Source of the DNA: Thermalbibacter longus
Lineage (GTDB): Bacteria > Chloroflexota > Chloroflexia > Thermomicrobiales > Thermomicrobiaceae
DNA: 55,235 nucleotides
NCBI RefSeq assembly: GCF_023806485.1
Contig: NZ_JAMSLR010000017.1
Coordinates: 1 to 55,235, forward strand
Direction: 5' to 3'
The translations under genes were made by a program, and so were the position numbers. Shown in pieces: positions 3,453 through 30,328 of this stretch (positions are counted from its first letter, which is position 1; the number at the start of each line of letters is the position of its first letter). The notes under the pieces were generated by a model. It had not been told where the DNA came from. It saw only the letters and a program-made list of their open reading frames with translations, and did not search any database.

Positions 3453-3456
3453 CGCT

Positions 3457-9907: not shown

Positions 9908-9924
9908 TCCCACCACTCCCCGCG

Positions 9925-10521: not shown

Positions 10522-12874
10522 CTGTGCCTCCTTCTCGCTCGGTTTGCATACAGGCAATGGCTTGGCAAAGCTGTTCAGCGGTATGTGGCATATCGAGGTG
10601 CACTACACCGAATGGGCGAAGCGCGTCGAGCACCGCGTTGCTGATGGTTGGCGGAGCGGCGATCGCGCCCCCTTCGCCAATGCCTTTCACCCCGAGCGGG
10701 TTGGACGGCGAGGGAAACTCGTACAGTGCGGTCTCGATGGTTGGGAGGGCACTAGCCCTGGGAAGCGCGTAGTCGAGTAACGAGGGACTTGTGAAGTAGG
10801 CCTGTGGCGTATATGCCGCATGCTCGAACAGTGCTTGGCCGATGCCCTGCGCGACTCCGCCGTGCACTTGCCCCTCGACAATCATCGGGTTGATCGCACG
10901 ACCGCAGTCGTCGACGGCAATGTAACGCCGCAGGTGAACTTCACCGGTCGAGGGATCGATCTCCACAACCGCTAGGTGGACACCAGCGGCATACGTATAG
11001 TTCGGCGGGTCGTAGGTTACCTGGACGGTCAGGCCAGGTGATTCTCCCTGCTGATGGACCGCAGCGGAATAGTAGGCTGCTGAACAGACCTCCTGAAAGC
11101 CAACGCTCCGCATCGGCGAGCCGCGGACCGTGAAGGTCCCCTGGCAGTAGTCCACGTCCTCGGGAGTACACTCCAGGAGGATAGCCGCGATGCGCTTAGC
11201 GCGGTCGAGGAGGCGTTGCCCAGCGATATACACCGCCGAGCCGCCGATCGTCATCGATCGCGTGCCGAACGTGCCGAACCCAAAAGGTGCTGTTGCTGTG
11301 TCGCCGAACTCGACTCGGAACGACTCGATCGGCAGCTCGAGCACCGAGGCGGCGATCTGCGCGAAAGCCGTTTCGTGCCCCTGCCCGTGCCCCGCGGTCC
11401 CGACCCGAACCGTTACGCCGCCCGAAGGGTCTGCTGTCACGGTCGCGCTCTCCCACAACGGGGACGAGCCTTCCATCGCGGCTGCAGTGGACGGTGTCGC
11501 TCCGCCGAGTTCGACATACGCGGCGATACCGATACCGAGAAGCCGCCCCTGCTCCCGCGCCTCGCGTTGTGCAGCTCGAAGGCCCTCATAATCCGCAAGC
11601 TCGAGCGCGCGATCGAGCATGACGTGGTAATCGCCGGAGTCGTAGGTCAACCCAGTTACGGTAGTGAAAGGGAACGCACCGCGCGGTACGAAGTTCCGGC
11701 GTCGGATCTCCACGGGATCCATCTCGAGCTTGGTCGCTACCATGTCGATCAGTCGCTCGATGAAGTAGATCCCTTCCGGCCGCCCCGCACCGCGATATGG
11801 GCCCGTCGGCACGGTGTTGGTGAAGACGCCGTACCCGGTCACATCGACGGCGGGTATGGCATAACAGCCGTTCAGCAACGGGAGCGTGCGAGCGAGGACA
11901 ACTCCCGAGGTATTCGGGTAGAGGTATGCCCCCAGGTTGAGCCACACCTCGCCGCGTAGTCCGAGTATCCGACCATCGCGGTCAGCAGCGATCTCGAGAT
12001 CGGCGAGCTGATCACGCCCGTGCGTGGTGGCCAGAAAGTGCTCGCTTCGCGTCTCGATCCACTTCACCGGAGCACCGAGCACCATGCTCGCGTAGGCCAC
12101 CGCCACTTCGTCGGGGTACATCGGTTCCTTCGCACCGAAAGCCCCTCCGACGTCGGGCATGATGACCCGGATATCTTGTTCGGGCAGACCGAGGATCTCT
12201 GCGAGGAACCAGCGCGTATGGTGGGGGCGCTGCGTCGAGAGCCAGCAGGTTAAGGTCTGGCGAGCTGGATCATAGTCGGCAACCATCCCACGTGGCTCGA
12301 GTGGATTCGGCACCACGCGATTGTTCCGCATCTCCTGCCGAACGCGCACAGCCGCCTTGGCGAACGCGGCCTCGACATCGCCCTGTTGGAGTCGCCGGGA
12401 AAAGGCGATGTTGGTTTCGAGCGACGGGTGCACGAGCGGGCTGGTGGCTCCCCGGGCTTCGTTGAGCGAGCCCACGGCAGGCAGCGTCTCGAATTCGAGC
12501 TGGATCGCTTCGACCGCATCGAGTGCAAGAGCAGGAGACGTAGCGACGACGAGCGCGATGGGCTCCCCCTGGTACCGTACGATCCCATCTGCCAGTACCG
12601 GGGGCGCTGGCAAGGCTTCGTGCGTAGTCGGAGGCCGGCGTATGAGCGGAATCGGCCGTACGCGAGAGGCGATGTCCGCCGCCGTCAACACGGCGACCAC
12701 ACCCTGAAACCGGGCCGCGGCCGCTGTGTCGAGGAGCGTGATCCTGCCGTGGGGCACTGGGCTCCGTAGAAATGCAGCATAGAGCATGCCCGGCAGATGA
12801 ACGTCACCTACATAGGTTGCACGGCCGGTCAGGAATCGCCGGTCCTCGACACGCCGAATCGAGCGACCGATCAC
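10514..12874 (-). CDS. Molybdopterin-binding large subunit, xanthine dehydrogenase/CO dehydrogenase family
   Basis: This 786-residue molybdenum hydroxylase large subunit inserts oxygen from water into C-H bonds of aldehydes or N-heterocycles. Visible landmarks are the N-terminal GRSIRRVEDRRFLTG, the cofactor-region motifs MPDVGGAFGAKEPMYPDE and GTAGHGQGHETAFAQ, and GIGEGGAIAAPPTISNAV with the catalytic glutamate. The GTG at 12874 forms a GTGA overlap with the dehydrogenase gene and has GGAGGAGG upstream; longer starts lack this. The companion FAD and [2Fe-2S] subunit genes, normally adjacent, are absent here. In this operon it may oxidise an aldehyde or hydroxylate a heterocycle next to nitrogen, as nicotinate hydroxylase does before enamidase. 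CO dehydrogenase is unlikely. Confidence 0.87.
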   Translation of the reverse strand: MIGRSIRRVEDRRFLTGRATYVGDVHLPGMLYAAFLRSPVPHGRITLLDTAAAARFQGVVAVLTAADIASRVRPIPLIRRPPTTHEALPAPPVLADGIVRYQGEPIALVVATSPALALDAVEAIQLEFETLPAVGSLNEARGATSPLVHPSLETNIAFSRRLQQGDVEAAFAKAAVRVRQEMRNNRVVPNPLEPRGMVADYDPARQTLTCWLSTQRPHHTRWFLAEILGLPEQDIRVIMPDVGGAFGAKEPMYPDEVAVAYASMVLGAPVKWIETRSEHFLATTHGRDQLADLEIAADRDGRILGLRGEVWLNLGAYLYPNTSGVVLARTLPLLNGCYAIPAVDVTGYGVFTNTVPTGPYRGAGRPEGIYFIERLIDMVATKLEMDPVEIRRRNFVPRGAFPFTTVTGLTYDSGDYHVMLDRALELADYEGLRAAQREAREQGRLLGIGIAAYVELGGATPSTAAAMEGSSPLWESATVTADPSGGVTVRVGTAGHGQGHETAFAQIAASVLELPIESFRVEFGDTATAPFGFGTFGTRSMTIGGSAVYIAGQRLLDRAKRIAAILLECTPEDVDYCQGTFTVRGSPMRSVGFQEVCSAAYYSAAVHQQGESPGLTVQVTYDPPNYTYAAGVHLAVVEIDPSTGEVHLRRYIAVDDCGRAINPMIVEGQVHGGVAQGIGQALFEHAAYTPQAYFTSPSLLDYALPRASALPTIETALYEFPSPSNPLGVKGIGEGGAIAAPPTISNAVLDALRPFGVVHLDMPHTAEQLCQAIACMQTEREGGTGE

Positions 12875-13731
12875 CGCATCTCCTCCTCCGCGAGATGTGC
12901 GATCTTCACGGTACCGGCGACGCCTCGCCCACCATCTGTGTGGATGACCGTTCCCGTCACGACGCGACTGCACATATGCGACGCCAGGTAGACGTAGGCC
13001 CAGACGTGGTCGGAGGTTTCCGGTGTGACCAGCAGGGGCACCGAGCGCCGAATGCGCTCTGCTCGCTCAGGGCGCTCATCGACCTGGGTCTGGCCCTCAC
13101 CGAATGTCTGAAGTCCACGCAGCGATGTTCCGACTGTACCGCCTGGAGCAACGCCGTTCACCCTGACGCGTGGAGCGAGTTGATAGGCAAGATGAGTCAC
13201 CAGACCGCGCGTCGCAAATTTGGCAGCGCCGTAGAGGATCCCTCCTCCCTCGGGATAGAACGCCGCTGTCGATAGCGTGAGCACGATCGCGCTCGGCTGG
13301 CGAAGGAGCAGGGGAATGGCGCACCGGACGGCGAGGAGATAGGACAAAACGTTCGTCGTGAAGATCTCGGAGAAGGCCTCCGGCAGCAGGCGCTCGTCGA
13401 GATCGAGGATAGTTCGGTAATAGTCGAAGACACCGACAGTGCACACCAGCGTATCGAGCTTACCGAAGGAGTCGCGCGCGCACTCGACCGCTCGCTGCAC
13501 GTCGGTGACTTCGGTCGCCGAGCCGCAGACTGTGAGGAGCGGCGCATCGGTCGTCGCCTCATTCTGTAGTGCAGCGAGCTTGTCCGGATCCCGCCCGAAT
13601 GCGACGACAGAAGCGCCCGCGCGCACGAATCCGAGCGCAACCGCGCGACCGATTCCGGAGGTCGCGCCTACGATCAGCGCGACCTGACCGTCGAGCAGAG
13701 AAGCGGTCGGGATCGGCTGGAGCCCTGTCAC
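12871..13731 (-). CDS. Short-chain dehydrogenase, cis-dihydrodiol dehydrogenase (BphB/NahB) type
   Basis: This 286-residue SDR protein is probably the NAD-dependent enzyme that rearomatises a cis-dihydrodiol to a catechol. It has the Rossmann glycine motif GATSGIGRA (22-30) and the catalytic set S154, Y167 and K171 (STAAFY, ILYGAAK). The C-terminal stretch (TSDHVWAYVYLAS, then GTVIHTDGGRGVAGTVKIA) resembles the corresponding part of biphenyl dihydrodiol dehydrogenases rather than generic SDRs. The ATG at 13731 overlaps the stop of the upstream 81-residue gene by four bases. The assignment is supported by the ring-hydroxylating dioxygenase genes just upstream; the substrate is not known. Confidence 0.82.
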   Translation of the reverse strand: MTGLQPIPTASLLDGQVALIVGATSGIGRAVALGFVRAGASVVAFGRDPDKLAALQNEATTDAPLLTVCGSATEVTDVQRAVECARDSFGKLDTLVCTVGVFDYYRTILDLDERLLPEAFSEIFTTNVLSYLLAVRCAIPLLLRQPSAIVLTLSTAAFYPEGGGILYGAAKFATRGLVTHLAYQLAPRVRVNGVAPGGTVGTSLRGLQTFGEGQTQVDERPERAERIRRSVPLLVTPETSDHVWAYVYLASHMCSRVVTGTVIHTDGGRGVAGTVKIAHLAEEEMR

Positions 13732-13973
13732 GATGGCCCCCAGGGGTTTTCGAGCATCCGGGAGAAGGTATCGACGGGCTGCCAGCTAATCGCTTCGAGC
13801 TCCAACGGGTCGAGATGGATGGTATACCCGAGTTTGGGAGAATGGATCTCGAGTCGCTCCCCGTTGCGCGTCCGGACCTTGCGGACGTGAGCTTCAGCGA
13901 ACTCGTTCTTGATCACGATCGTCTCGGTTACCGGTTCCAGTGCTGGCCATGCGGCATGATTCTCGTGCTCCAT
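13728..13973 (-). CDS. Small protein of unknown function between dioxygenase and diol dehydrogenase genes
   Basis: This 81-residue soluble protein is not recognised. It has no signal peptide, membrane segment or cysteine cluster and looks like a small beta-rich domain (ETIVIKNEFAEAHVRKVRTR, then LEIHSPKLGYTIHLDPLELE). It overlaps the dihydrodiol dehydrogenase start by four bases and follows the dioxygenase beta-subunit gene by 30 nt, so it is firmly inside the operon and a real gene. Possible roles are an accessory subunit, a chaperone or an electron-transfer docking factor for the dioxygenase; none is proven by sequence. Confidence 0.75.
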   Translation of the reverse strand: MEHENHAAWPALEPVTETIVIKNEFAEAHVRKVRTRNGERLEIHSPKLGYTIHLDPLELEAISWQPVDTFSRMLENPWGPS

Positions 13974-14003
13974 CGCACGCCTCCCTGATGATCGTCGAGC
14001 CGA

Positions 14004-14540
14004 CTACAGGAAATAGGACAGGTTCCGAACGGACAGCACACTTTGGTCGACGATGATCGTGCGCCGGGCGATACGCCAGCCAGACTCAGTGCGCCGCAGC
14101 AGATCGGTACGCTGGGTGGACAAGAGCTCGTATTCCGGTAGCTCTCCTCGCGAGCGATAGATCAGGACGTTGTAGTGGACGTGGTACTCGTCCTGCTGGT
14201 CCGCAGGGCGAACACGGATGTTGGACAGATAGTAACGAACACGCGAAGGTGGATCTTCCGCCCAGGCATATTCAGTGTTCAGGCGAGCGACGCGAACGGC
14301 CAGCGTCTGCTTCGTGTCGTCGAACAGCCGGCCGGTCGGCGAAACCTCCCAGGCTGCTCCGCGTTCCCGCGTGACGCGGATCGGCACCTCGTACAAGGCA
14401 TCATCCGTGAAGAGTTCGACCCAATCGTCATATCGCCGCTCGACGAGCAGTGCTGCTTCATCGTAGAGAAACTGCGAAATCTCGTGGTGAAGCAGCAAAT
14501 CGTCGACCGTTGGGGAGGAACGCGTAACCGCTTCAGTCAT
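14004..14540 (-). CDS. Aromatic ring-hydroxylating dioxygenase, beta (small) subunit
   Basis: This 178-residue structural subunit of an alpha3beta3 Rieske oxygenase has the SnoaL/NTF2-like cone fold. Typical features are the N-terminal helical part (EISQFLYDEAALLVERRYDDWVELF), DDALYEVPIR, YLSNIRVR and a C-terminal RTDLLRR...WRIARRTIIVDQS...LSYFL ending. The frame is open to 14663, but the ATG at 14540 gives the family start (MTEAVTRSSPTVDDLLLHHE) and normal length. It follows the alpha-subunit gene by 49 nt. The beta subunit mainly stabilises the complex and sometimes affects substrate choice. Confidence 0.88.
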   Translation of the reverse strand: MTEAVTRSSPTVDDLLLHHEISQFLYDEAALLVERRYDDWVELFTDDALYEVPIRVTRERGAAWEVSPTGRLFDDTKQTLAVRVARLNTEYAWAEDPPSRVRYYLSNIRVRPADQQDEYHVHYNVLIYRSRGELPEYELLSTQRTDLLRRTESGWRIARRTIIVDQSVLSVRNLSYFL

Positions 14541-14589
14541 GGCCTTCCACCTCTCCACTGTGGGCCTGGCACCAGCCTCAGCACCACCC

Positions 14590-15963
14590 CTAGTCAGCGA
14601 CAGGTTGCGTCTCCGGCGGATGGAAGGCTGGCGGCACGCGAGCCGGGTCGACGGGCTCACCAAGGGGTGTCAGCAGATAGTTCAACCAGGTGCCCCAGAG
14701 GTTGCGGAAACCAATCTCCGTAACATACGGGGTAAATGCGCGCCCTGGCCCTGGAAAGTCAGCGATCGGCTCCAGGTCGAGCCCCTGGAGATAGGCAAGT
14801 TCGAAGCTGTCGGCGTTGAACGCGGCGTGCTGCCGGGAGAGATTTGTCCAGTTCTCGAAGTCGTCTTGTTCGAAGGTCCCGGCAGCGCCGAAGGCCAGAC
14901 TGTAGACACGGTAGATCTCGTGCTTCAGTTCGGCGGGGATGTGCTTCGGTACGAGACACCACGTCCACATCTCGATCTTGCCCGGTCCGCGCGGATGCCA
15001 CAGTCGCATAGTGCAGAACTTCAACCCGGGCTGGCCCGGAGCGAGACTGAACGGTTGGATGAGGAACGAGAGGTTCGGGAAGACGGTGGCCACGGACATG
15101 CGGGCGTCGCGGAACACGCTGATCTGCTCAGGGGACAGCGCGTTCATGTATCCTTCGACAACTTCGGGTGGAAAGCCGACGAAAGGCGGTAGCCCTGGCG
15201 TGTGACCGATGCCGATACAGTGGCCTCGACCGGGGATATGGACAGCGTAACCCATAAAGTGCGTGCGGCCACTCGAGGGATAGAACCCGAGCGCAAAGCC
15301 GAACTGGTGCGCGACCGGGGTATGATACCCGTCTCCTCCGAAATTCTCGGCGCAAATCTTCCAGTCCGTATCGGAGACCCAGCGCTCTGGCGGGCCGTAC
15401 ACTTCCGCGCCCTCGGGTCCAGGCTTCAGGAAGAAGTCGAGGTAGAACTGGAAGCCCCCGAGATACTCGTCGAGCGGGTCCGCGTTCGGGTCGAGAGTGC
15501 CGAAGATTAGCCCACCGTACGTGTCGATGCGGACTGGGCGTAGTCCCCATTCGGCTCTGTCCAAGCGTCCACGGTAGACCTCGCGATGATACGGAACGCC
15601 GATGAGCTCGCCCGTATTCTTGAACGTCCAGCCGTGGTACGAGCAGCGGAAGTGCGACGCATTGCCCATCTCGGCCTTGCAGACCTGGTTCCCGCGATGC
15701 GTACAGGCGTTTCGGAATGCTCGCACTTGCCCGTGCTCGTCTCGAACCACAATGACCGAAAGGTCGGCAATCCAGCGCAGCACGTAGTCGCCGGGGTGTG
15801 GGATCTCCGACTCGTGAGCCAGAAACACCCAAGCGCGCGAGAAGAGGCGTTGCTTCTCGAGGGTATGAACGGCTGGATCGTTGAAGATCTTGGCCGGAAT
15901 GCGCCCCTCGGGCAACGTCTCCCACATCCGGTGGAGGTAGTCCGGGATGACGGGGGCAGTCAT
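14590..15963 (-). CDS. Aromatic ring-hydroxylating dioxygenase, alpha (large) subunit
   Basis: This 457-residue catalytic subunit adds both atoms of O2 to an aromatic ring to give a cis-dihydrodiol. The Rieske [2Fe-2S] motif CxHx17CxxH is intact (C87, H89, C107, H110). Mononuclear iron ligands are H214 and H219 (DGYHTPVAH) with an aspartate of QDDFENW (366-372); D211 can bridge electrons from the neighbouring Rieske centre. The ATG at 15963 has AGGAGGT upstream and lies 22 nt after the hydratase-aldolase gene. A ferredoxin and a reductase must feed it electrons, but neither gene is in the window. Motifs are closest to naphthalene/biphenyl/phthalate-type alpha3beta3 enzymes; the substrate cannot be assigned. 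Confidence 0.92.
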   Translation of the reverse strand: MTAPVIPDYLHRMWETLPEGRIPAKIFNDPAVHTLEKQRLFSRAWVFLAHESEIPHPGDYVLRWIADLSVIVVRDEHGQVRAFRNACTHRGNQVCKAEMGNASHFRCSYHGWTFKNTGELIGVPYHREVYRGRLDRAEWGLRPVRIDTYGGLIFGTLDPNADPLDEYLGGFQFYLDFFLKPGPEGAEVYGPPERWVSDTDWKICAENFGGDGYHTPVAHQFGFALGFYPSSGRTHFMGYAVHIPGRGHCIGIGHTPGLPPFVGFPPEVVEGYMNALSPEQISVFRDARMSVATVFPNLSFLIQPFSLAPGQPGLKFCTMRLWHPRGPGKIEMWTWCLVPKHIPAELKHEIYRVYSLAFGAAGTFEQDDFENWTNLSRQHAAFNADSFELAYLQGLDLEPIADFPGPGRAFTPYVTEIGFRNLWGTWLNYLLTPLGEPVDPARVPPAFHPPETQPVAD

Positions 15964-15985
15964 GTGCACACCTCCTGCCTTGCAC

Positions 15986-17014
15986 TCACTGCACGACGGC
16001 GGATCGTGCGGCAAGACGATCACGCACCTCCTGGCGCAAGACCTGCCAGCGGCGCACGTGCTCGAGCGTGGACGAGACGTGATCCTGTGGGAGCAGATCC
16101 ATGTAGTAGGGTGGCCGGCTCGGGCCGGGCTTCATGTACCCAGCCGCCTCGTAGCGCAGGCGCTCGAGTTGGATGTTGTACCGCGCGAACTCGGGGAAGT
16201 CGCGACTCACGATGAACGGCTCGTGCGCCCACAAGATGCGTTCGGCGATCCAGCGCCCTTCTTCGAAATCGTTGGCGAGAAGCACATCACGGAGGTAGAA
16301 GACCGGCTCCGGGCCACAGGTCGCGGTGGTGCTCCAACACCCAGGAACCTGGTCACCGTACAGGCTATACGCAAAGAACCAGATGCACTCGATCGGGAAG
16401 AGACGGATCTTCCCCTGGACAGCCTGAAGATCGTTGTGATAGCGGAATCCGATCGCCGCGCCACCGGCATACTTGACAGCGACAACCTGCGGGATGTCGG
16501 CCAACGCTGCATAGACCTCTGTCGGGATCACGCCGCGAAACGCGGCTGTATTGTCGTAGACGCAGATCGCGAGCTCGGGAACTGCCGCCGCCACGTCCTG
16601 GTAGAAGCGGATCATCGTCTTAGCAGTCATCTCCGACCACATCGGTCGGCCGAGCAGGACGCCGACGGCCCCGATGTCGCGCAGGAAACGCATGCGATCG
16701 ATGGTATCGCGCGTGTTGAGGGTCGTCGCGCCGATGAACAGGGGGAAATCGGGGTTAAAGGCCCGCACCGTTTCGACGACAGCCGATGCGAAGGCCTTCC
16801 ACTCGTCGAGCGTCAGGGTCCCCATCTCGCCGAGGGTGCCATTGGTCGCGATGCTGTCAGCCCCGTCGTGGAGCAGGCTCCGGATCATCCGCTCGGTCTC
16901 GTCGAGGTCGACCGTATCGCGCGCCGAGAGATCGCCACCGTTGTCCTTGGCAGGTGTCGGCGGGTATGCCATTACGCCCTTGAGGTCCTGCGCCGAAATC
17001 CGTGGGAGTGTCAC
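15986..17014 (-). CDS. Hydratase-aldolase of the DHDPS/NAL superfamily, NahE/PhdJ type
   Basis: This 342-residue class I aldolase resembles trans-o-hydroxybenzylidenepyruvate hydratase-aldolase, which splits the ring-cleavage product of bicyclic aromatics into an aromatic aldehyde and pyruvate. Recognisable segments are GVMAYPPTPA, TVDLDETERM, ATNGTLGE, GATTLNTRDTI and LGRPMW. Y153 (CVYDN) and the Schiff-base lysine K181 (VVAVKYAG) match the family. The GTG at 17014 has AAAGGGGT upstream. It is the first enzyme gene after the regulator, 69 nt downstream. Its presence implies that the pathway makes an aryl-substituted ene-pyruvate, so a fused-ring or styryl-like substrate is likely. Confidence 0.88.
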   Translation of the reverse strand: MTLPRISAQDLKGVMAYPPTPAKDNGGDLSARDTVDLDETERMIRSLLHDGADSIATNGTLGEMGTLTLDEWKAFASAVVETVRAFNPDFPLFIGATTLNTRDTIDRMRFLRDIGAVGVLLGRPMWSEMTAKTMIRFYQDVAAAVPELAICVYDNTAAFRGVIPTEVYAALADIPQVVAVKYAGGAAIGFRYHNDLQAVQGKIRLFPIECIWFFAYSLYGDQVPGCWSTTATCGPEPVFYLRDVLLANDFEEGRWIAERILWAHEPFIVSRDFPEFARYNIQLERLRYEAAGYMKPGPSRPPYYMDLLPQDHVSSTLEHVRRWQVLRQEVRDRLAARSAVVQ

Positions 17015-17083
17015 CGATCTACCCCTTTCGATCTTGCGCTCCGCAGCAACACAACACGACAGTGCAGCCCCTTCCCCTGCTTC

Positions 17084-17827
17084 TCAGCCGAGTCGATGAC
17101 CTCCTCTCTGTCGTGTCGCGACTCGTCTCCCGTCAGTCGGAACATCGGAGCTCGGCGTCCCCGTCTTGTCGAGGACACTGAACATCGCGTCGGCAGCATT
17201 CCGGATATGCTGGCGAGATCGTTGGTCCGCGAGGCGGGCGTCTCGACGTTGAATGGCTTCGACGATCTCGCGCATCTCGGCCAAGCTGACCTTGAGCCGG
17301 CCAGGGGCTTGTAGCGACGTCGCGCGCAGGAATCGGAAACGCCATTGCAGCGATTTCAGGAGCGATTCCAGAATGGGATTCCGCGCTCCTGCCAGCAGCA
17401 ACCCGTAGAACTGATCCTTGAGCAGGAGATACCGGCGGAAATCATCCTCTGCGACGGCCTCCGCGAGACTATCCAGAGTCAAAGTCAGCTCGGCGATCTC
17501 GTCATCGGTAGCGCGCTGGGCAAACAGTGCGGCGGCAAATCCCTCCAGGACCTCACGCACTTCGTAGAGTGCAAGCGCCATGGCGCTGTCGAACTGAGCG
17601 ACGATGAGTCGTCCGAGTTCGTCCCGCTCCAGTAGACCTTCGGCTTCCAGCTCGCGCAGCGCCTCGCGCAGGGTCGGTCGAGAGATTCCGAGCGTTGTGG
17701 CGAGCTGCCGCTCGCTCAATCGCGTTCCAGGACGGAGCAAGCGCTGCGCAATCGCCTCGCGTAACACCTGAACCGCTGTGCTTCGCGTGGGTGCGATGAC
17801 TCGCGGAATCTTGGGCAACGTATCCAT
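17084..17827 (-). CDS. GntR-family transcriptional regulator with FCD domain
   Basis: This 247-residue regulator has an N-terminal winged helix-turn-helix (about 10-75: VLREAIAQRLLRPGTRLSER, GISRPTLREALRELEAEGLL) and an all-helical FCD ligand domain (about 85-225: YEVREVLEGFAAALFA). FCD domains bind carboxylic acids, often with a metal, and typically release DNA on binding. It is the promoter-proximal gene of the catabolic cluster, so it probably controls itself and the operon. The ATG at 17827 has GGGAGG seven nt upstream. A perfect TGGTC-N-GACCA palindrome lies just upstream of its promoter. The C-terminal 25 residues look disordered and basic. Confidence 0.9.
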   Translation of the reverse strand: MDTLPKIPRVIAPTRSTAVQVLREAIAQRLLRPGTRLSERQLATTLGISRPTLREALRELEAEGLLERDELGRLIVAQFDSAMALALYEVREVLEGFAAALFAQRATDDEIAELTLTLDSLAEAVAEDDFRRYLLLKDQFYGLLLAGARNPILESLLKSLQWRFRFLRATSLQAPGRLKVSLAEMREIVEAIQRRDARLADQRSRQHIRNAADAMFSVLDKTGTPSSDVPTDGRRVATRQRGGHRLG

Positions 17828-17849
17828 CGCTCGGCCTCCCGCACCGAGG

Positions 17850-17878
17850 AGCGTAGCACGAAATGGCTTGATTGTCAA
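17850..17878 (-). promoter_or_regulatory. Sigma70-like promoter of the catabolic operon
   Basis: Read on the minus strand, TTGACA (17873-17878) is followed after 17 bases by TACGCT (17850-17855). The -35 box is a perfect match and the spacing is ideal. Transcription would start near 17843 and leave a short leader to the GntR start at 17827. No other good promoter was seen in the gaps of the following 17 kb. Confidence 0.75.
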
Positions 17879-17888
17879 GACCGTCTGG

Positions 17889-17899
17889 TGGTCTGACCA
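17889..17899. promoter_or_regulatory. Putative GntR/FadR-type operator
   Basis: TGGTCTGACCA is a perfect inverted repeat around one central base, identical to the core of the FadR operator consensus (TGGTCNGACCA). It lies 10 bp upstream of the -35 box of the GntR gene, a sensible place for a GntR/FCD protein to act. Binding by this regulator is inferred. Confidence 0.65.
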
Positions 17900-18207
17900 T
17901 TTTTGGCTCGTCCTGAGCCGGCTCGGCTCCAGCCACTCGCTCAACGGCTGGACCCACAACGATTTCAAAGCTATCCGTCGCCGAGCAGGGCGTGATTGAG
18001 TAACGCGTGATCCAAACCCGGGGGAAGACGATTCGGCGCTTCTACCTGACCCAGAACAGATATCCTGGTCGCATCCCAGCGAGGTTAAATCGGTTCGCGC
18101 TCAACGACGCCATTGTTCGAGCGATGATTTGATCTGGATTGCATGGAGAAGCTCTCCCAGGCTAGGTGAGATTTTGAGATCCTGTAACGTCAACGAACGT
18201 ACCTCTG

Positions 18208-18239: not shown

Positions 18240-19118
18240 CTACCGGCGGCGATTGGCGGTGACGGCCAGGAAGAGGGCAGACATGTCCTCCTCGCCGTGC
18301 CCCATCGCGATCGCCTCCTCGTAGCGCGACCTCACCGCTTCGGTGATCTCCAGCGGCTGCCCGCCGCCCTCGGCTGCTTCCAGAATCAGCCGGGCATCCT
18401 TCAGCGCAAGCCTCAACGAAAAGCTCGGCTCGAATCGGCGCTCGACCATCATCCGCCCCTTGACGCGCGCAAAGGGCGCGTCGAGCGGCCCGCCCTCGAT
18501 CGCCTCGAAGAACCAATCCGGGTCGACGCCGATCGCCTCGGCCAGCGCCAGGGTCTCCGCCAGAGCGCCCAGGAAGCCGGCAATCCAGTTGTTCGTCACC
18601 AGCTTCAGCCGGCTCCCCATCCCCGCCGGCCTTAGCCAGAGCGTCCGTCGCCCGATCGCGTCGAAGATCGGCTGGCAGCGCTCGCGGAGCTCCTCGGGTC
18701 CTGACGCCAGCACGACGAGCGTGCCCTCCTCGGCCGGCTGCCGCGTGCCGAGCACCGGCGCGTCGACATAGGCAATCCCGCTCTCGGCGGCGATGCGCCC
18801 GAGCCGCTCACATCCCTCGATGCCCACAGTGCTCATCTGCAGCCAAACGCCACCCGGCGCTAGCGCGCCCAGCACGCCATCCCGGACCACCTCCTCGATG
18901 ACGCTGGCGTCCGGCAAAAAGGTGATCAGGAAGTCGGCATCCCGCGCCGCGGCAGCCGCGCTCTCCCCGACCTGAATACCCTCGCGCGCCAGCGGCTCCG
19001 CCCTCTGCGGAGTCCGGTTCCAGACCCGCACCTCCATCCCCGCGCGCAGCAGGTTCCGCGCCACCGCGATGCCCATGATCCCGGTGCCCAAAACCGCAAC
19101 GCGTGCGCGACTACTCAT
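18240..19118 (-). CDS. NAD(P)-dependent beta-hydroxyacid dehydrogenase (3-hydroxyisobutyrate dehydrogenase family)
   Basis: This 292-residue protein has an N-terminal Rossmann domain with GTGIMG (11-16), the second motif DAPVLGTRQPAEEGTL (119-134) and the catalytic lysine region RLKLVTNNW with K172 and N176. The family reduces or oxidises small beta-hydroxyacids such as 3-hydroxyisobutyrate, tartronate semialdehyde or succinate semialdehyde. The frame is open to 19247, but the ATG at 19118 starts directly before the nucleotide-binding strand, with GAGAGGGG upstream. It follows the nitrilase gene by 46 nt on the same strand, so the two may be co-transcribed. It is separated from the catabolic operon by 412 bp, so membership of that pathway is unproven. 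Confidence 0.88.
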   Translation of the reverse strand: MSSRARVAVLGTGIMGIAVARNLLRAGMEVRVWNRTPQRAEPLAREGIQVGESAAAAARDADFLITFLPDASVIEEVVRDGVLGALAPGGVWLQMSTVGIEGCERLGRIAAESGIAYVDAPVLGTRQPAEEGTLVVLASGPEELRERCQPIFDAIGRRTLWLRPAGMGSRLKLVTNNWIAGFLGALAETLALAEAIGVDPDWFFEAIEGGPLDAPFARVKGRMMVERRFEPSFSLRLALKDARLILEAAEGGGQPLEITEAVRSRYEEAIAMGHGEEDMSALFLAVTANRRR

Positions 19119-19164
19119 CGACGCACAACCCCTCTCTGGTTTGGTCCCCGTGAGCAGCACGACC

Positions 19165-20172
19165 TCAGCTCTGACTGGTCGCCCGCGCCGCCTCCACGAG
19201 TTCCACTCGCGGCATGTCTTTCGCCTCCGGCTCCGGGACCGTCCCACCGGTGAAGACGACCGCCGGCTTCGGCGACTCGTCTACGACCAGGCGGAAGATG
19301 TCCGGCCGGGCATAGTGCCCGACGACGTCGAAGTCGTACTTCCCCCTGATGATCTCCCTGAGGTCGAGATCGGCCACCAGCACGGTCTCGCCGTCGAACG
19401 CCGGACCGGCCAGCACCTCTCCCAGCGGCGACACGATGAGCGATCCACCTCGGCACAGGACAGCGTCAGGATCGTGCATGCCCTCGATCGGGTAGTCCTC
19501 CGGATAGTCGCGGCGGCGAGCGAACTGGTTAGCCGATAGGACGAAGCACCGCCCCTCGCAGGCGATGTGCCGCATGCTGGCGATCCAGGTGTCCCGGGCA
19601 TCGGCTGTCGGCGCGCAGTAGAGTTGAATTCCTTTCTGGTACATCGCCATCCGGAGCAGCGGCATGTAGTTCTCCCAGCAGATCACCGCGCCTAGCCGGC
19701 CGATCGCGGTTTCGAACACCGGGAGGGTCGATCCGTCGCCGAAGCCCCACACCAGTCGCTCAGCCGCCGTCGGCATCACCTTGCGGTGCTTGCCCATCAG
19801 CTCGCCGGCCGGATCGAAGAACAGGACGGTGCAGTAGAGCGTTCCAGCGGAGCGCTCGATGACGCCGATAACCAGGTACACACTGCGCTCGCGCGCCATG
19901 GTACCCAGCCGCTGCGTCACCGGACCGGGCACGTCGATGGACGATTCCCAGTAGCGCCGGAAGAGTTCCCGGCCTTCCGGCGTGCGCGAGCCGATGGTCG
20001 CGCCGAAGGTAACGCCACGCGGATAGCAGGTGACGAACGCCTCGGGGAAGACGACGAGCCGGGCACCGCTCGCGGCAGCGTCGTCCAGAAAGCGCTGGGC
20101 TTTCTCCAGGGTTCCGTCCAGGTCGAAGGCTACCGGGGCCGCCTGCACCACGGCTGCTCGAACGACGGTCAT
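19165..20172 (-). CDS. Nitrilase/carbon-nitrogen hydrolase
   Basis: This 335-residue enzyme of the true nitrilase branch hydrolyses organic nitriles to carboxylic acids and ammonia, usually as helical filaments. The catalytic triad is intact: E44 ([13 protein letters not shown]), K131 (KHRKVMPT) and C165 ([12 protein letters not shown]). The CWENYMP context is typical of nitrilases rather than amidases or beta-ureidopropionases. The ATG at 20172 has GGGAGGT upstream. It is followed by the dehydrogenase gene. Aliphatic, aryl-aceto and cyanide-hydratase-like activities cannot be told apart from sequence alone. Confidence 0.9.
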
Positions 20173-20417
20173 AGCCGAACCTCCCAATTGTCGCGCGGCG
20201 GATGAATCCTGCTGGTTTCCATTGGCAGGCTTATGGAAGGATCAGCCGGCGCTACAGATGTCCTTCTCAGGCATTATAAACCGAGGGATACCAGGGCCCG
20301 CGGGGCAGCGTTACGCCGGCCTTCGGGCGAGCAGGCTCGCGAGCGCCGAACCATGCGAGACCCGGTAACCTGTCCAGAGAGCGCTAACGCTCGGAGCCGG
20401 CCAGCTCTATTAGGTCG

Positions 20418-20435
20418 AGCCAGCAGGCGCTGGCT
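20418..20435 (-). terminator. Hairpin after the metallophosphoesterase gene
   Basis: AGCCAGC (20418-20424) and GCTGGCT (20429-20435) form a 7-bp stem with a 4-nt loop three bases past the TAA at 20439. There is no clear T-run, so termination is possible but not certain. Confidence 0.4.
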
Positions 20436-20438
20436 GCG

Positions 20439-21437
20439 TTACGAGTGGCAGGTACCTTGCCCGGCGTCGGTAAAGGTACCACCGGCGGCCGGAATGAATT
20501 GCCACTCGTACGAGTCCGGTCGGAGGGTGAGCTTGAGAACGCCGTATGTCTGATGATCCCGCACCTCGCTGGCTGGGTGGATCTCGGCGAACGGCCGCAG
20601 GCTGCGCCCGCCAGTGCCAACCACGAAGGAGCGGATGCCGCGCTCCGGATCGACCTGCCCTTGGTCGTTCAGCGGCGCGAAGCGCTCGTAGTCGTGGTCG
20701 TGACCGGTTAGTACCACGTCGACGCCATACTCGTAAAGGATCTCCCAGATGGCCTGCATCGAACGGAAGTCGCCGTGCTGGCCCGAGCTGAAGCGAGGAT
20801 GGTGCCAGTAGGCGACGGCACACTGGGTAGGGTGCGCCGCCAGATCACTGCGCAGCCACTCCGCCTGAGGGGAGTCGGCGTGACAGCCCCCCACCTGCTT
20901 GCAATTCGAGTTGAGCACCACGATATGCCACCGACCGAGGTCGTATGAGTAGTAGCCCTTGCCTGGCTCACCCGCCAGCTCTCCGAAGTAGGCGAAGTAA
21001 CCGGACGCTCCCGGTGTCTTGTACTCATGATTGCCCACCGCAGGCCGGATCCGCTCCTTGTGCCGGCCCCAGGCAGGGGCGAAGCATTGGGCGTACTCTT
21101 CCGGCTTCCCCGACTCGTAGACCGTGTCACCCAGCGCGGCGATCAAGCCGGGCTGCCCATCGAGGAGCGCCGCTGTTGCCTCGTCACCCTCACTCTTGCA
21201 GGACGCGATATCCCCCACCGCGAAGAGGACGGGATCCGCCTGCTCCACCTTACCCTGCAGCCCGGGCGCGCCCTCGGTAGAGGGTGTGCTCGAGTCACGC
21301 GACGCCGGTGTCTCGAAGCCGGGGAGTTGGACGGGCGTGCTCGGCGTATCGGTGGGCACGCCACAAGCAGGAGCGAGCAGCGTGAGCAGCAGCGCGATAA
21401 GGGCGGGCTTCGAGCGAAATCGTCGCGAGCGCTGCAT
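20439..21437 (-). CDS. Secreted metallophosphoesterase lipoprotein (purple acid phosphatase-like)
   Basis: This 332-residue protein has a lipoprotein signal peptide (hydrophobic LIALLLTLLAPAC, C25 as lipid site) and a Ser/Thr/Pro linker to about residue 65. A calcineurin-like phosphoesterase domain follows, with the dinuclear metal motifs VGDIAS, ALGDTVY, VGNHEY, YWHHPRFSSG and LTGHDHDYER in the usual order. It would face the outside of the membrane and hydrolyse phosphate esters. The ATG at 21437 has GGGAGGG about 9 nt upstream. No operon partner is evident. The substrate is unknown; phosphate scavenging is plausible. Confidence 0.88.
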   Translation of the reverse strand: MQRSRRFRSKPALIALLLTLLAPACGVPTDTPSTPVQLPGFETPASRDSSTPSTEGAPGLQGKVEQADPVLFAVGDIASCKSEGDEATAALLDGQPGLIAALGDTVYESGKPEEYAQCFAPAWGRHKERIRPAVGNHEYKTPGASGYFAYFGELAGEPGKGYYSYDLGRWHIVVLNSNCKQVGGCHADSPQAEWLRSDLAAHPTQCAVAYWHHPRFSSGQHGDFRSMQAIWEILYEYGVDVVLTGHDHDYERFAPLNDQGQVDPERGIRSFVVGTGGRSLRPFAEIHPASEVRDHQTYGVLKLTLRPDSYEWQFIPAAGGTFTDAGQGTCHS

Positions 21438-22086
21438 CGGGCGTACCCTCCCGAGCGGAACGAGTGTCCAATCGCCTATCTATGGGAGACTCGACAGCGA
21501 AGAGCCAGGGAACAAAGCCAGGGATCGGAGGCCCGGCGGGCGATACAGTCGGAGCGTGCGGCCGGTACAATCCCTTGCCACCGGTGGCGAGAGCGCACGC
21601 TGGTAAATATGTCGCACCCAAATCTAGATGCCGGTTCTCGGCATGGCCAGGCAATCGACTATCCATCCGTTGCTCATTTCCTAGTCAACCGGTGTCCAAT
21701 TGCTGTCCACGGTAGACCGGAGGACTCCATAGCGAAGTACGCCGAGATGGCGTTTCAGCATCGCGGTCGCGCCGCTCCACATACCGCGAGCCGATCGCGG
21801 ATCTTCTACCGGACGTCGAGGTGAATAAGAGCAACTCGGGTCACACCCGCGTATCATGAGGTATGTCGACAGCCATTCGACTCCCGAGTTGTGGCAGCGC
21901 ACGAGTGGATCCTGAGCCATCGCCGAGACGACGGCGTCTACGCACTCGGACGCCAGACCCAGTGAGCGACGGCTAGTTCACTGCCCGGCTCGAATCGTGC
22001 GAGGCCTCTGGGAGGATTATCCGGAAGGTGCACACAGCGGGTATCACAGATAGCGCGCAACGTTCGGCCCCAGAGCAGGAGGGCGA
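21438..22086. other. 649-bp gap without a recognisable gene
   Basis: No convincing coding frame was found on either strand; the short open frames have no ribosome-binding site and no family resemblance. A short plus-strand stretch ending at 21963 reads HEWILSHRRDDGVYALG and could be the decayed end of a gene. The last 20 bp contain the CAGGAGGG ribosome-binding site of the next gene. Confidence 0.5.
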
Positions 22087-22740
22087 ATGGCGTTGGACGA
22101 CGTGGAACGAATCGAGATCCGCGGGTCCGCCTGGAAAGTCACCCTGGCGTTCATAGCGTCTGCGGCGTTCGCCCTTACTGGGTTCGCTCTGGTCGTCTAC
22201 TCCGAAGACACGTTCGCTAAAGTTGCGGGAATCCTCTGCATCGCATTCTTCGGCGTGTTCGGTGCGGTGGCGCTGTACGGGCGAGCGCGCGGGGACTACC
22301 AGAGGATAGCCGTTTCACGGGCAGGCCTCGAAGTCTACCTTCCGGGGGTCGGATGGCGGCTTATACCCTGGGGCGACATCGAGGAGATCTCCGTGCTCGA
22401 GGTCGCCGGGCAACAGTTCACCGCGGTGCGCCTCCGGAGCTACGAGGCACTGCTCGCGGGGCTGACCCCCGAGAAGTCCCGTGCGGCCGCGCGCAGGTTC
22501 GCCGCCCTGGGACTGTTCGGGCAAGCCACCGCCGCGCTGCTAGGAGGCTCCCGTTTGGGGCACCTCGTGCAGGGCTCGGAAGCGGTCAGGGACTTGCCGA
22601 GCATGCTCGCGTTCAGCCGAGCAAGGTTCGGGGCGGAGCTGTTGTTCGGGTGGGATCAGCGCGATCGCAATGCTCACGACTTCGCCGAGTTCTTGAAGGA
22701 GTGGCAGCGAGCGGGAAACTCTGAATCAAGGCCCCGGTAA
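22087..22740 (+). CDS. STM3941-like membrane protein with two N-terminal TM segments
   Basis: This 217-residue protein has two hydrophobic segments (about 18-40 and 45-64) and a cytoplasmic domain that looks PH-like (GLEVYLPGVGWRLIPWGDIEEISVLEV). That arrangement resembles the uncharacterised STM3941 family. The C-terminal part is helical and charged. CAGGAGGG precedes the ATG at 22087. It stands alone, converging with the protease gene 186 bp away. Function is unknown; membrane sensing is only a guess. Confidence 0.65.
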   Translation: MALDDVERIEIRGSAWKVTLAFIASAAFALTGFALVVYSEDTFAKVAGILCIAFFGVFGAVALYGRARGDYQRIAVSRAGLEVYLPGVGWRLIPWGDIEEISVLEVAGQQFTAVRLRSYEALLAGLTPEKSRAAARRFAALGLFGQATAALLGGSRLGHLVQGSEAVRDLPSMLAFSRARFGAELLFGWDQRDRNAHDFAEFLKEWQRAGNSESRPR

Positions 22741-22926
22741 TGGAGGCTTGCCCCGGACCCACACGGCACTCAGTGTGAGACGGTGAGCTGCGTTGCTGCG
22801 CGGCGCGGTCGATGAGCTGGAACCACGCCTCACCTCGTGGAAAGCAATGTCGCGGTGGTGACCGAAGCTACGCTCGACCGGTGGCGCAGCGCGCGAGCGC
22901 CCATGCTGACTGGCCATCCAGCCTGA

Positions 22927-23781
22927 TCAAGGGCGTCGCTCGCCCCGGCCACGGTCACGCTGCGGCGGCTCGTATGGAAGCGGGATGTACTGCACCGAGG
23001 GGCGCCGCTGGCTCGTCTGAGGATAGAGGTCCATGAGCTGGTAGACCTCTTCCGGGATTCCGGTGTTGACGGGCAGGCCGAGCGCCTTCGCTTCCTCCAC
23101 CGCGATCGGGTAGTCGTGTGTCCACTGCCCGCAGGTGAGCGCGTCCGCCAGTGGCTCGGCCTGCTCGCGCCCCATCCCGTTCGCCGAGAGGACTTCGATC
23201 ACCGTGGAGCGCACCTGCTTGAGCGCCTTCTCGCCGATATCGGCGAACACGAGCGTCTGATCGTCGATCTCAGCAATCGGCTTCTCCCGGACAACCCTTA
23301 GGAGCGAGGCCGCCGGGAACTGCCCGATCTGGGGATCGACCGGCCCCAGTACCGCGTTCTCGTCCATCACGATCTCATCGGCAGCCAGCGCGATCAGCGT
23401 CCCGCCCGACATCGCGTAGTGCGGCACGAAGACGGTGACTTTGCCTTTGTGACGCACGAGCGCCTGTGCGATCTGCTCTGCCGCCAGCACCAGCCCTCCG
23501 GGCGTGTGCAGGATGAGGTCAATTGGAAGATCGTCAGGCGTTAGGCGAATCGCCCGGAGTACCGCCTCCGCGTCCTCGATGTCGATGTAGCGCGCCAGCG
23601 GGAGCCCGAGGAAGGAGATCGACTCCTGCCTGTGGATCATCGTGATAACGCGCGTGCCACGCTTGCGCTCGATCTGGTGGATCATTCGCAAGCGCTGGGC
23701 TTCCAGAAAGCGCCGCTGCACGACGGGCGTGAGTACCGAAAACAGAAAGAAGAGCCAGAACAGCAGGCCGATGATCTCCAT
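22927..23781 (-). CDS. Membrane-anchored ClpP-like serine protease (SDH proteinase family)
   Basis: This 284-residue protein has an N-terminal transmembrane anchor (2-22) and a ClpP/crotonase-fold domain of the SDH proteinase type (PF01972-like). Characteristic stretches are DLILHTPGGLVLAAEQIAQA, the nucleophile region YAMSGGTLIALAADEIV and LGPVDPQIGQFPAAS. The C-terminus is basic and proline-rich. Relatives are thought to degrade membrane-associated substrates. It is divergent from pspA, whose start is 196 bp away, and htpX lies nearby, so a role in envelope quality control is reasonable but inferred. Confidence 0.85.
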   Translation of the reverse strand: MEIIGLLFWLFFLFSVLTPVVQRRFLEAQRLRMIHQIERKRGTRVITMIHRQESISFLGLPLARYIDIEDAEAVLRAIRLTPDDLPIDLILHTPGGLVLAAEQIAQALVRHKGKVTVFVPHYAMSGGTLIALAADEIVMDENAVLGPVDPQIGQFPAASLLRVVREKPIAEIDDQTLVFADIGEKALKQVRSTVIEVLSANGMGREQAEPLADALTCGQWTHDYPIAVEEAKALGLPVNTGIPEEVYQLMDLYPQTSQRRPSVQYIPLPYEPPQRDRGRGERRP

Positions 23782-23933
23782 CGCCTCGCCTCACCACTCG
23801 CTCGGCTCACAGTTCCCAGGCAACGCCCAGGCAATGCCCATCTACTGAACAAGCTACCAGCCCGAGCACCCACCGGACAAGAGCCCGCGCCGCTTTCAGC
23901 TCGAACCGCTTTCGTGCAAGCCCTCCCCTGCCC

Positions 23934-23939
23934 TATAAT
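23934..23939 (+). promoter_or_regulatory. -10 box of the pspA promoter
   Basis: A perfect TATAAT lies 38 bp before the pspA ATG. The matching -35 region (23911-23916, TTCGTG) is weak, so an activator or an alternative sigma factor may be needed. Confidence 0.55.
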
Positions 23940-23977
23940 CCTTCCCGGCAGCCTGTGCCGGAAGGGAGCGAGCGATC

Positions 23978-24718
23978 ATGGGGTTGATCTCGAGAATGAC
24001 GACCCTCATCAAGGTCAAGCTGAGCCGCCTGCTCGACCGTGCCGAGGACCCGCGCGAGACCCTGGATTACGCGTACGAGCGGCAGCTTCAGCTCCTGCAG
24101 GAAGTGCGCCGCGGCATCGTCGATGTAACGACCTCCAAGCGGCGGCTCGAGCTCCAGCGGGCAAAGCTCCAGGAGAGCCTGGACAAGCTGACGCAACAGG
24201 CGCGCCAGGCGGTGGCCGCTGGTCGGGAGGACCTCGCCCGGCTGGCGCTGGAGCGCAAGGCCGTCGCCCAACAGCAGATCACCACGCTGGATCAGCAGAT
24301 CGCGAGCCTGGAGCAAGAGCAGGCCAAGCTCGAGCAGGCTGAGACGAGGCTGCGGGCGAAGGTCGAGACCTTCCGGACGCGCAAGGAGGTGATCAAGGCA
24401 CAGTACTCCGCAGCCGAGGCGCAGGTTCGGATCAACGAGGCGGTCACCGGCATCTCCGAAGAGATGGCTGATGTCGGTCTGGCACTCGAGCGGGCCGAGC
24501 AGAAGACCGAGCAGCTCCAGGCCCGCGCCGGAGCGATCGATGAGCTGCTCGCCTCCGGCGTTCTCGAAGATCTTACTGCCGGATCACAGGACACGATCGA
24601 GCGGGAGCTCGCCAGGGTCACTGTTACCGAGTCTGTCGAGGCCGAACTGGCGGCACTGCGCCGCGAGCTAGGACAGCCCGAGCAGCCCAAGCAACTCGGG
24701 GAGGGGAGCAGCACATGA
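23978..24718 (+). CDS. pspA: PspA/IM30 (Vipp1) family membrane-stress protein
   Basis: This 246-residue almost entirely helical protein forms long coiled coils (about 25-150 and 155-240). The amphipathic N-terminal helix (MGLISRMTTLIKVKLSRLLD) is the membrane-binding element of the family, followed by AEDPRETLDYAYERQLQLLQ, a hallmark PspA start. Family members form ESCRT-III-like polymers that stabilise damaged membranes. It overlaps pspAA by four bases, so the two are coupled. The pspAB and htpX genes converge from the right, matching the PspA/PspAA/PspAB/HtpX association reported for other bacteria. Confidence 0.93.
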   Translation: MGLISRMTTLIKVKLSRLLDRAEDPRETLDYAYERQLQLLQEVRRGIVDVTTSKRRLELQRAKLQESLDKLTQQARQAVAAGREDLARLALERKAVAQQQITTLDQQIASLEQEQAKLEQAETRLRAKVETFRTRKEVIKAQYSAAEAQVRINEAVTGISEEMADVGLALERAEQKTEQLQARAGAIDELLASGVLEDLTAGSQDTIERELARVTVTESVEAELAALRRELGQPEQPKQLGEGSST

Positions 24719-24993
24719 TCGTGCGGATCTCGACGGAGGGCCAGTACCGGCTGGAGAGCACCTACCTCGACCAGCTCAACGCGATCGATAACGCCGTCGT
24801 GGAGGCCATCGCGGCGAACGACGAGTCGCGCTTCCGGACACTGTTCCAGTCCATGCTCGATCTGGTTCGCCAGCACGGCAAGCCGGTGCCGCCAGAGGAG
24901 TTCGTCGAATCAGACATTATCTTGCCCCCTCCTGATACCTCATTCGAGGAGGCGCGGGAACTCTTCGCCGGCGAGGGCCTAGTTCCGGGCTAG
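24715..24993 (+). CDS. pspAA: PspA-associated protein PspAA
   Basis: This 92-residue soluble protein (MIVRISTEGQYRLESTYLDQLNAIDNAVV...) has the compact PspAA form found beside pspA in actinobacteria, Chloroflexota and archaea. The start overlaps the pspA stop by four bases (ATGA). Its biochemical role is not well established; it is regarded as a PspA partner. The C-terminal third is acidic and ends LFAGEGLVPG. Confidence 0.85.
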   Translation: MIVRISTEGQYRLESTYLDQLNAIDNAVVEAIAANDESRFRTLFQSMLDLVRQHGKPVPPEEFVESDIILPPPDTSFEEARELFAGEGLVPG

Positions 24994-25037
24994 CAGCAGC
25001 CACGCTGGACCGGCGGCGGACCGGGTGCAGAGCGTTC

Positions 25038-25610
25038 TCAAAGCGGAATACCCCACAAGGGATACCAGCGCTCGAGCTCAGGCTCGATCGGGAGTTCGCG
25101 CTGGAGCGCGTTCGCCAGGCGGAGCTCCAGCGCGTGGTCGCGCTGCTGATCTCCGCGCGGCGCGAACGGCGTGAAGCGCCCTCGCTTGTACTGGTAGATC
25201 CAGTAGAACGGTTGGCCATCCGGCGACGTGAACCGGAAGACGGCAGCCAGGAGCTGTTCCCCGAAGCCCTGCTCGAGCAGAGTCTGCGCCAGCATGTGGA
25301 CGGCTGTGATCAGATCCTCGAAGTCAGGATCGCTCAAGATTACCCAGCGGTAACGATAGCGATCGACCTGCGTACGGTACTCGGTGCCAGCTTCGCGGGC
25401 GCTGACCGCGAGCAGCTCGTCGAGTTCCTGGCTCGCGCGGTCGAAATATGGCGACTCAACCGGGCGGAAGACCAGCGCCGCCTCCTGGCCCGGACGGAAG
25501 CCGAGCTGGGCCTCCATCGTGACGACCGCCGTGGAGAGCGCGATCAAGCCCTCGCTCCGGGCTGGTGGCGGCTGCGACCGCCCGAGCAGGATGTCGAGCA
25601 GGCGCTTCAC
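25038..25610 (-). CDS. pspAB: PspA-associated protein PspAB
   Basis: This 190-residue soluble protein begins MKRLLDILLGRSQPPPARSE, with LALE-like mid-segments (RYRYRWVILSDPDFEDLITA), YQYKRGRFTPFAP and an ending ERWYPLWGIPL, all typical of PspAB. Its ATG overlaps the htpX stop by four bases, so htpX and pspAB form a two-gene operon. The convergent arrangement with pspA-pspAA supports one envelope-stress module. Molecular function is unknown. Confidence 0.82.
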   Translation of the reverse strand: MKRLLDILLGRSQPPPARSEGLIALSTAVVTMEAQLGFRPGQEAALVFRPVESPYFDRASQELDELLAVSAREAGTEYRTQVDRYRYRWVILSDPDFEDLITAVHMLAQTLLEQGFGEQLLAAVFRFTSPDGQPFYWIYQYKRGRFTPFAPRGDQQRDHALELRLANALQRELPIEPELERWYPLWGIPL

Positions 25611-26524: not shown

Positions 26525-26561
26525 CGTTCCAGCTCCTATGCGGCGTCGATTCACCGTTGCG

Positions 26562-26589
26562 ATTATACTCTCGTCAACAACCTGTTTCC
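26562..26589 (-). promoter_or_regulatory. Putative htpX-pspAB promoter, possibly ECF-type
   Basis: On the minus strand a TATAAT (26562-26567) is preceded after 16 bases by GGAAAC (26584-26589). The -10 is canonical, but the -35 looks like the GGAAC box used by ECF sigma factors. A leader of about 30 nt would result. The sigma class is a guess. Confidence 0.4.
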
Positions 26590-26782
26590 GTGAGCAATGA
26601 GGGGTGTTCGTGCCGTTCCGGACCGTTGGAACAAGGCTCGCGAAATTGCGTCAGGGCCTCTTCGTTTACCCGCTGGTGATCGCCTCGTTCACCGTTCTCA
26701 CACCTGCTGGCAGGCCGCCCCTGCCCGCTACGAGATACGAGCTGGCAACGGCGGACACCGATCGTGCGAGCTCGAACCGGCG

Positions 26783-28467: not shown

Positions 28468-28480
28468 TCGGCGGCACCAC

Positions 28481-28504: not shown

Positions 28505-28512
28505 GCGTCGGC

Positions 28513-30283: not shown

Positions 30284-30328
30284 CTGCTCGCTCCCCTCGT
30301 TGCACGAGCGGGACACCCGCTGCCCGGA

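Follow-up and report, generated by a model that had tools for sequence, protein, structure and literature searches.

A short palindrome in front of a GntR/FCD regulator gene of Thermalbibacter longus is very probably the operator core of the gene cluster's own regulator, as judged by its conservation before the orthologous operon of Thermomicrobium roseum. It lies in a 55,235-nucleotide stretch covering contig NZ_JAMSLR010000017.1, here called the window. The combined reading, in which an FCD-type regulator would bind this core, repress its own operon and be released by an inducer, is assigned a probability of roughly 0.7. The features concerned are as follows.

17889-17899, minus strand: palindrome TGGTCAGACCA, read directly from the letters, the core of the candidate operator
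17880-17898, minus strand: block GGTCAGACCACCAGACGGT, the palindrome with an adjoining CAGACGGT box, 18 of 19 positions identical before the T. roseum orthologue
17873-17878, minus strand: predicted -35 hexamer TTGACA, with GGTCTTGAC at nearly the same distance from the ATG in T. roseum
17850-17855, minus strand: predicted -10 hexamer TACGCT after a 17-bp spacer, TATAGT in T. roseum
17835-17840, minus strand: ribosome-binding GGGAGG, with GGAGG at a near-equal distance before the ATG in T. roseum
17084-17827, minus strand: GntR/FCD (VanR-type) regulator of 247 aa, first gene of the operon, assigned by Pfam, model and structure search
15986-17014, minus strand: PhdJ/NahE-type hydratase-aldolase (DHDPS fold), solved relatives 6dan (PhdJ, E 6.9e-78) and 9frt
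14590-15990, minus strand: Rieske ring-hydroxylating dioxygenase alpha subunit, from domain and profile matches
14004-14543, minus strand: ring-hydroxylating dioxygenase beta subunit, from domain and profile matches
13731-13973, minus strand: small protein, function unassigned, 80% identical to an 85-aa T. roseum protein in the same place
12871-13731, minus strand: dihydrodiol dehydrogenase-like SDR (HcaB/BphB-like), below the curated cut-offs of those models
64-12880, minus strand: remainder of the operon, same gene order in T. roseum

TGGTCTGACCA stands at 17889-17899, ahead of the regulator gene. Along the minus strand the order is TGGTCAGACCA (17899-17889), 10 bases, TTGACA, 17 bases, TACGCT and 22 bases including GGGAGG, followed by the ATG at 17827. 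The initial annotation had described a perfect palindrome 10 bp from a TTGACA-N17-TACGCT promoter in front of a GntR/FCD gene; upon rechecking of the coordinates, each of these elements and distances was found to be correct. The start codon at 17827 is supported by the T. roseum protein, which aligns from residue 1.

Conservation of the site extends beyond the palindrome. The pattern GGTCAGACCA[C/T]CAGACGGT precedes the regulator gene both in the window genome and on the T. roseum megaplasmid. When the 200 bp upstream of each gene were compared without gaps, the top-scoring match paired GGTCAGACCACCAGACGGT with GGTCAGACCATCAGACGGT, with 18 of 19 positions identical and a score of 16. Alignment of 300 dinucleotide-shuffled pairs gave a mean score of 7.6 and a maximum of 11, and none of the 300 reached 16. 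It is this 19-bp match that places the site above chance and lends good support to the earlier prediction of an operator for the neighbouring GntR gene. A C replaces T at the outer left base of the palindrome core in T. roseum; GGTCAGACC shows perfect symmetry in either species. The region contains a TKGT-N3-ACMA palindrome before the regulator's own operon, as seen for FadR/FCD-type operators, and it is conserved in one orthologue. The position given in the initial annotation held, but its bounds were too short, as the conserved block together with T17899 spans 17880-17899. The candidate operator very probably comprises 17880-17898 and T17899, which leaves 1 bp between it and the -35 hexamer. 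GntR-family sites have been described with weaker extra half-sites lying 7-12 nt from their centre (PMC4494728), which the CAGACGGT part resembles; this box is possibly an extra half-site or a direct repeat. An imperfect second GTCAGAC (TCGTCAGACTC) was also observed in the T. roseum locus (L067) around 19914, 44 bp upstream of the main block.

With Y at the variable base, the block has a single exact copy in the window assembly and a single one on the megaplasmid, the only T. roseum replicon covered by this count, and no further exact copy was present among 158 genomes of the class, leaving only one other operon with the exact block. Allowing 3 mismatches added two places in the window assembly and one on the megaplasmid, compared with a single reversed-control match in each. 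Up to 2 mismatches, the 158 genomes contained 17 two-mismatch places besides the window's, compared with 20 for the reversed control. The 17 surrounding loci (1.7-3.0 kb each) matched none of 18 query proteins, and these places were rejected as further operators and attributed to chance.

The 11-bp word alone proves nothing, since the 3.63-Mb assembly has 3 exact copies of TGGTCNGACCA and 6 of its reversed control; there was accordingly no genome-wide enrichment of the 11-mer in that assembly. With at most one mismatch, TGGTCNGACCA occurred 3 times in the window, with 1.67 expected. In the genome search that the initial annotation had proposed, the two exact words besides the window's are both on reading frames, which suggests from their placement that the regulator is local rather than global. 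One of them is inside a 413-aa reading frame. The other, TGGTCTGACCA at L003 1501-1511 (G000:C45:32436), overlaps the start and first codons of a 178-aa frame, the product of which looks secreted by eye; this copy is probably due to chance. The word also does not accompany the GntR family, as upstream of 32 other GntR-family matches there were no symmetric TNGTNNNACNA sites and two loose ones, a weak negative in that distances were counted from where the protein match begins, with start codons unverified. Comparison of the best palindromes upstream of 17 other GntR matches and the window returned no single common motif; TTGTCGACAA was seen in L037 and also in L011, which is outside the cassette search, and was then traced through the cassette loci described below. 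Rfam matched nothing in the window.

The regulator scored 58.7 bits against PF00392 and 97.3 bits against PF07729 (curated cut-offs 27 and 24.3), as expected of an FCD-type GntR protein. In the best of five AlphaFold2 models, for which four sequences were used (mean pLDDT 84.3, against 65-76 for the other four), a winged helix is followed by six C-domain helices at residues 81-105, 108-126, 130-148, 151-171, 177-193 and 197-222. Six C-domain helices are reported to mark the VanR subclass and seven the FadR subclass (PMC12042122); with six in the best model, the regulator models as a VanR-type FCD protein. The top PDB folds returned by Foldseek include Atu1419/VanR, PmiR and AlkR, and AlkR had the highest TM-score by target length among the matches listed (0.90), with 20% identity in the structural alignment.

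The site had also been called FadR-like. The half-site part of that description stands, as the palindrome has the TGGT/ACCA half-sites of FadR, and E. coli FadR probes in a published primer table contain TGGTCCGACC and TGGTACGACCA (PMC4259882). TKGT/ACMA is, however, described as a motif common to the FadR/FCD subfamily as a whole (PMC4494728), and the regulator itself is not FadR. That identity was excluded by 27% identity to E. coli FadR over 158 aa, by the six C-domain helices and by the lack of FadR_C (PF07840), which scores 252 bits in E. coli FadR and is absent from the window and T. roseum regulators. Residues Glu34, Arg35, Arg45 and Arg49 of FadR are tabulated as DNA contacts, with Arg at the second contact position favouring G/C at the variable base of TKGT (PMC4494728). 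The window regulator has Glu, Arg, Arg and Arg at these positions, and by alignment its second-position Arg fits the TGGT of the palindrome. The rule is a loose one, because actinobacterial relatives share the Arg beside TTGT-type sites.

The usual metal ligands of FCD domains are Asp or Asn plus three His. At these positions the window regulator has K, Y, M and H where the GntR protein of the Rhodococcus locus L081 has N, H, H and H, and the metal-binding set is not present. Alignment with PmiR agrees on Y, M and H at the last three ligand positions and places the first at a gap. The T. roseum regulator has K, Y, I and H, and those of loci L037-L039 have Y, L and H at the last three positions. 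Across the FCD regulators of these cassettes (window, L037-L039 and L067), most metal ligands appear to be lost, with Tyr in place of the first His and a hydrophobic residue in place of the second. Pockets with most of the ligands missing suggest that these regulators respond to an effector of a different kind, and such pockets could make them sensors for aromatic intermediates.

Eleven related loci were compared. Three of them (L037-L039), all actinobacterial, contain a GntR match 32-36% identical to the window regulator, as judged inside the fetched stretch, so that regulators just beyond it would escape. A sister palindrome, WTGTCGACAW, was present in all three of the cassette loci that have a GntR match and in one of the eight that lack it, compared with at most 0.07 per locus in shuffles of nine loci (L043 and L044 omitted). 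The three regulator-bearing loci contain two, three and two copies, two each being at or upstream of the likely start of the regulator (L037 4611 and 4770; L038 4469 and 4636; L039 4407 and 4593; 159-186 bp apart); one site each in L037 and L039 falls within the longest regulator frame. This spacing recalls the two palindromes of Atu1419, which are 190 bp apart (PMC7797058). The actinobacterial palindrome lacks a central base and has T where the window has G; it is related to that of the window but not identical. The aldolase, AA_synth, amidohydrolase and regulator were matched in L038, and no dioxygenase was. L043 has a single WTGTCGACAW at 12157, far from the aldolase and with no regulator match; the aldolases of L043 and L044 are 37-39% identical. 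Aldolase searches of 400 genomes of the phylum (E ≤ 1e-60) returned the window's own and one at 40% identity, and those of 393 genomes of the class of bacterium HR24 (E ≤ 1e-100) returned HR24 alone, in which no close relative of the regulator was found (best E 2.9e-6).

The genes behind the regulator include, after the SDR, the large subunit of a molybdenum dehydrogenase, an AA_synth protein, an amidohydrolase, two enoyl-CoA hydratases and an ABC permease, followed by a substrate-binding protein, an AMP ligase, an ABC ATPase, a TPP enzyme and a catechol 2,3-dioxygenase-like VOC protein. The window begins at base 1 of the contig, so the operon may continue past it. The closest solved relatives of the aldolase are PhdJ and trans-o-hydroxybenzylidenepyruvate hydratase-aldolases. 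Seen beside the dioxygenase, the dihydrodiol dehydrogenase and the proteins resembling catechol 2,3-dioxygenase, this aldolase suggests an aromatic substrate of bicyclic or phenylpropanoid type. The small protein of unassigned function sits between the dioxygenase beta subunit and the SDR, and small hypothetical genes are likewise placed in L080 and L081. No FAD or iron-sulfur subunit accompanies the molybdenum hydroxylase large subunit (10514-12880) among the annotated neighbours in either the window or T. roseum.

The T. roseum counterpart was identified by a protein search of a plasmid collection, in which the best 20 of 713 records comprised a 53.7% identical regulator relative on megaplasmid NC_011961.1 and 19 others at 38-42%. 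All 17 operon query genes were matched on the megaplasmid in the same order, from the regulator to the VOC dioxygenase, at 53-87% identity (L067, locus 20001-37758). The regulator is among the least conserved proteins of the operon, at 54% versus 86-87% for the aldolase and dioxygenase alpha subunit. The two genes upstream of the window operator have no match in the 40.7-kb T. roseum locus; those on the same strand at 18240-20187, a 3-hydroxyisobutyrate dehydrogenase-like and a nitrilase-like gene, are outside the shared unit. The words dioxygenase, aromatic, naphthalene and GntR do not occur in the main text of the T. roseum genome paper (PMC2615216), and searches of the open-access literature, which used no block-specific term, returned no paper on the operon or operator.

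The two promoters are alike in position and differ in where the block lies. GGTCTTGAC is located at -55 to -47 relative to the ATG in the window and at -53 to -45 in T. roseum, and this near-equal distance puts the -35 boxes in register. A 17-bp spacer follows the -35 in both species, and the -10 hexamer after it is TATAGT in T. roseum and TACGCT in the window, where only 3 of 6 positions agree with TATAAT. A consensus promoter scan listed none at this site. Over positions 1-17900 a scan gave no promoter-like sites and 12 terminator-like sites (7 on the minus strand) compared with 8.2 in shuffles, a result that neither supports nor excludes internal signals. The T. roseum block (L067 19957-19975) falls within TTGACG...TATAGT (19952-19980) and spans the 17-bp spacer, whereas the window block is upstream of the -35, its position with respect to that hexamer differing by 25 bp. 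The window spacer contains AATCAAGCCA, which aligns to GGTCAGACCA and may be a decayed second copy of the operator.

An autoregulated local switch is the favoured reading, and repression is most likely its sign. The site is about 60 bp from the regulator's start codon and would form the core of its operator. A VanR-type dimer is predicted to use its winged helix to bind GGTCAGACC and to make a second contact on the adjoining CAGACGGT box, and the bound dimer would cover the upstream edge of the -35 of the presumed operon promoter. When inducer is lacking, the regulator would hold down expression both of its own gene and of the downstream aromatic-degradation genes, until released by an aromatic substrate or an intermediate of the pathway. 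Control of the whole cluster in this way assumes a single transcript.

Repression is taken as the default because a protein bound in the T. roseum spacer would be expected to block polymerase and because repression is reported as the general mode of action of GntR-family regulators, those of biphenyl operons among them (PMC10282184). The window block, upstream of the -35 and with its palindrome centred at about -51 from the assumed start, is also compatible with activation, which is kept as a possibility on the precedent of BphR1. BphS is a repressor, whereas BphR1, whose operator does not overlap the promoter, is an activator, a difference attributed to operator position (PMC10282184). It is rather unlikely that the window protein is an activator or dual regulator that, when inducer-bound, recruits polymerase from just upstream of the -35 while the T. 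roseum orthologue acts as a repressor bound in the spacer. The poor -10 of the window, next to the better one in T. roseum, would suit such a scheme; with the block 1 bp from the -35, however, a bound protein could simply clash with sigma. The narrower proposal, that the 25-bp move of the operator together with the weaker -10 turned the same regulator from repressor to activator of the same operon, is unlikely, and if true would be a clean natural experiment on the evolution of regulatory logic.

The preference for a palindromic operator bound by a dimer was also weighed against a repeat structure. GAC recurs at 8-bp spacing in both promoters (GACCACCA GACGGTCT in the window; GACGGTCA GACCATCA GACGGTAT in T. 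roseum), conservation runs past the palindrome into the second repeat, and up to three NanR dimers are reported to occupy GGTATA repeats (PMC8012715). An operator made of direct repeats with an 8-bp period, occupied by several NanR-like dimers and yielding the palindrome as a by-product, is nevertheless quite improbable: plain palindromes accompany related regulators, the symmetry of GGTCAGACC is perfect in both species, and the third GAC of the window is out of step (9 bp). That the operator is instead CTTGA-caa-TCAAG, which has 5-bp arms on the -35, with TGGTCTGACCA incidental, is highly improbable given that it is absent among T. roseum palindromes with arms of at least 5 while the GGTCAGACC block is kept. 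A chance palindrome or part of a plus-strand terminator hairpin, as the unenriched 11-mer and a listed hairpin followed by T (17878-17894, plus strand) might indicate, is scarcely credible beside the conserved 19-bp block, flanking genes on the minus strand on both sides, the lack of a same-sense T run after the block in T. roseum and terminator-like matches at shuffle level (1 vs 0.7).

The repressor operator favoured here provides a bounded, testable candidate for an uncharacterised aromatic-degradation operon, and T. roseum supplies a comparison pair with the same genes and operator and a different promoter geometry.

Among known systems, AlkR of Pseudomonas aeruginosa (GntR/VanR, PDB 9isw) has the same VanR-type FCD fold with six C-domain helices. 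AlkR protects ATTGTCAGACAAT by footprint (PMC12042122), an operator with a GTCAGAC core in common with that of the window, and, like the predicted window regulator, is a local switch for a hydrocarbon-oxidising gene (PMC12042122). It differs in operator flanks (TT/AA vs GG/CC in the window), in its response to long-chain acyl-CoA and in an operator placed over -10 regions (PMC12042122). Atu1419 of Agrobacterium fabrum (VanR, PDB 6z74) is likewise described as an FCD/VanR aromatic-acid repressor with short palindromes at its own promoter, but its operator is ATGTATACAT, with two sites, a tetrameric protein and Zn in the pocket (PMC7797058). E. coli FadR shares the TGGT/ACCA half-sites and the DNA-contacting Glu/Arg residues, and differs in its FadR_C domain, in its local identity of 27% and, as stated in PMC12042122, in its acyl-CoA ligand.

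At the level of gene content, the nearest parallel is with the nar clusters of Rhodococcus (NarR1; pNAPH, L081), where a GntR gene is near dioxygenase alpha and beta subunits, a dihydrodiol dehydrogenase and a DHDPS-type aldolase; a GntR gene is reported to accompany the cassette (PMC5006600). The L081 GntR gene, which we infer to be narR1, encodes a protein only 30% identical to the window regulator, and the 19-bp block is absent from L081 within 5 mismatches. The biphenyl operons under BphS and BphR1 resemble the window in having a ring-hydroxylating dioxygenase operon controlled by a GntR protein, with the sign of control tied to operator position (PMC10282184).
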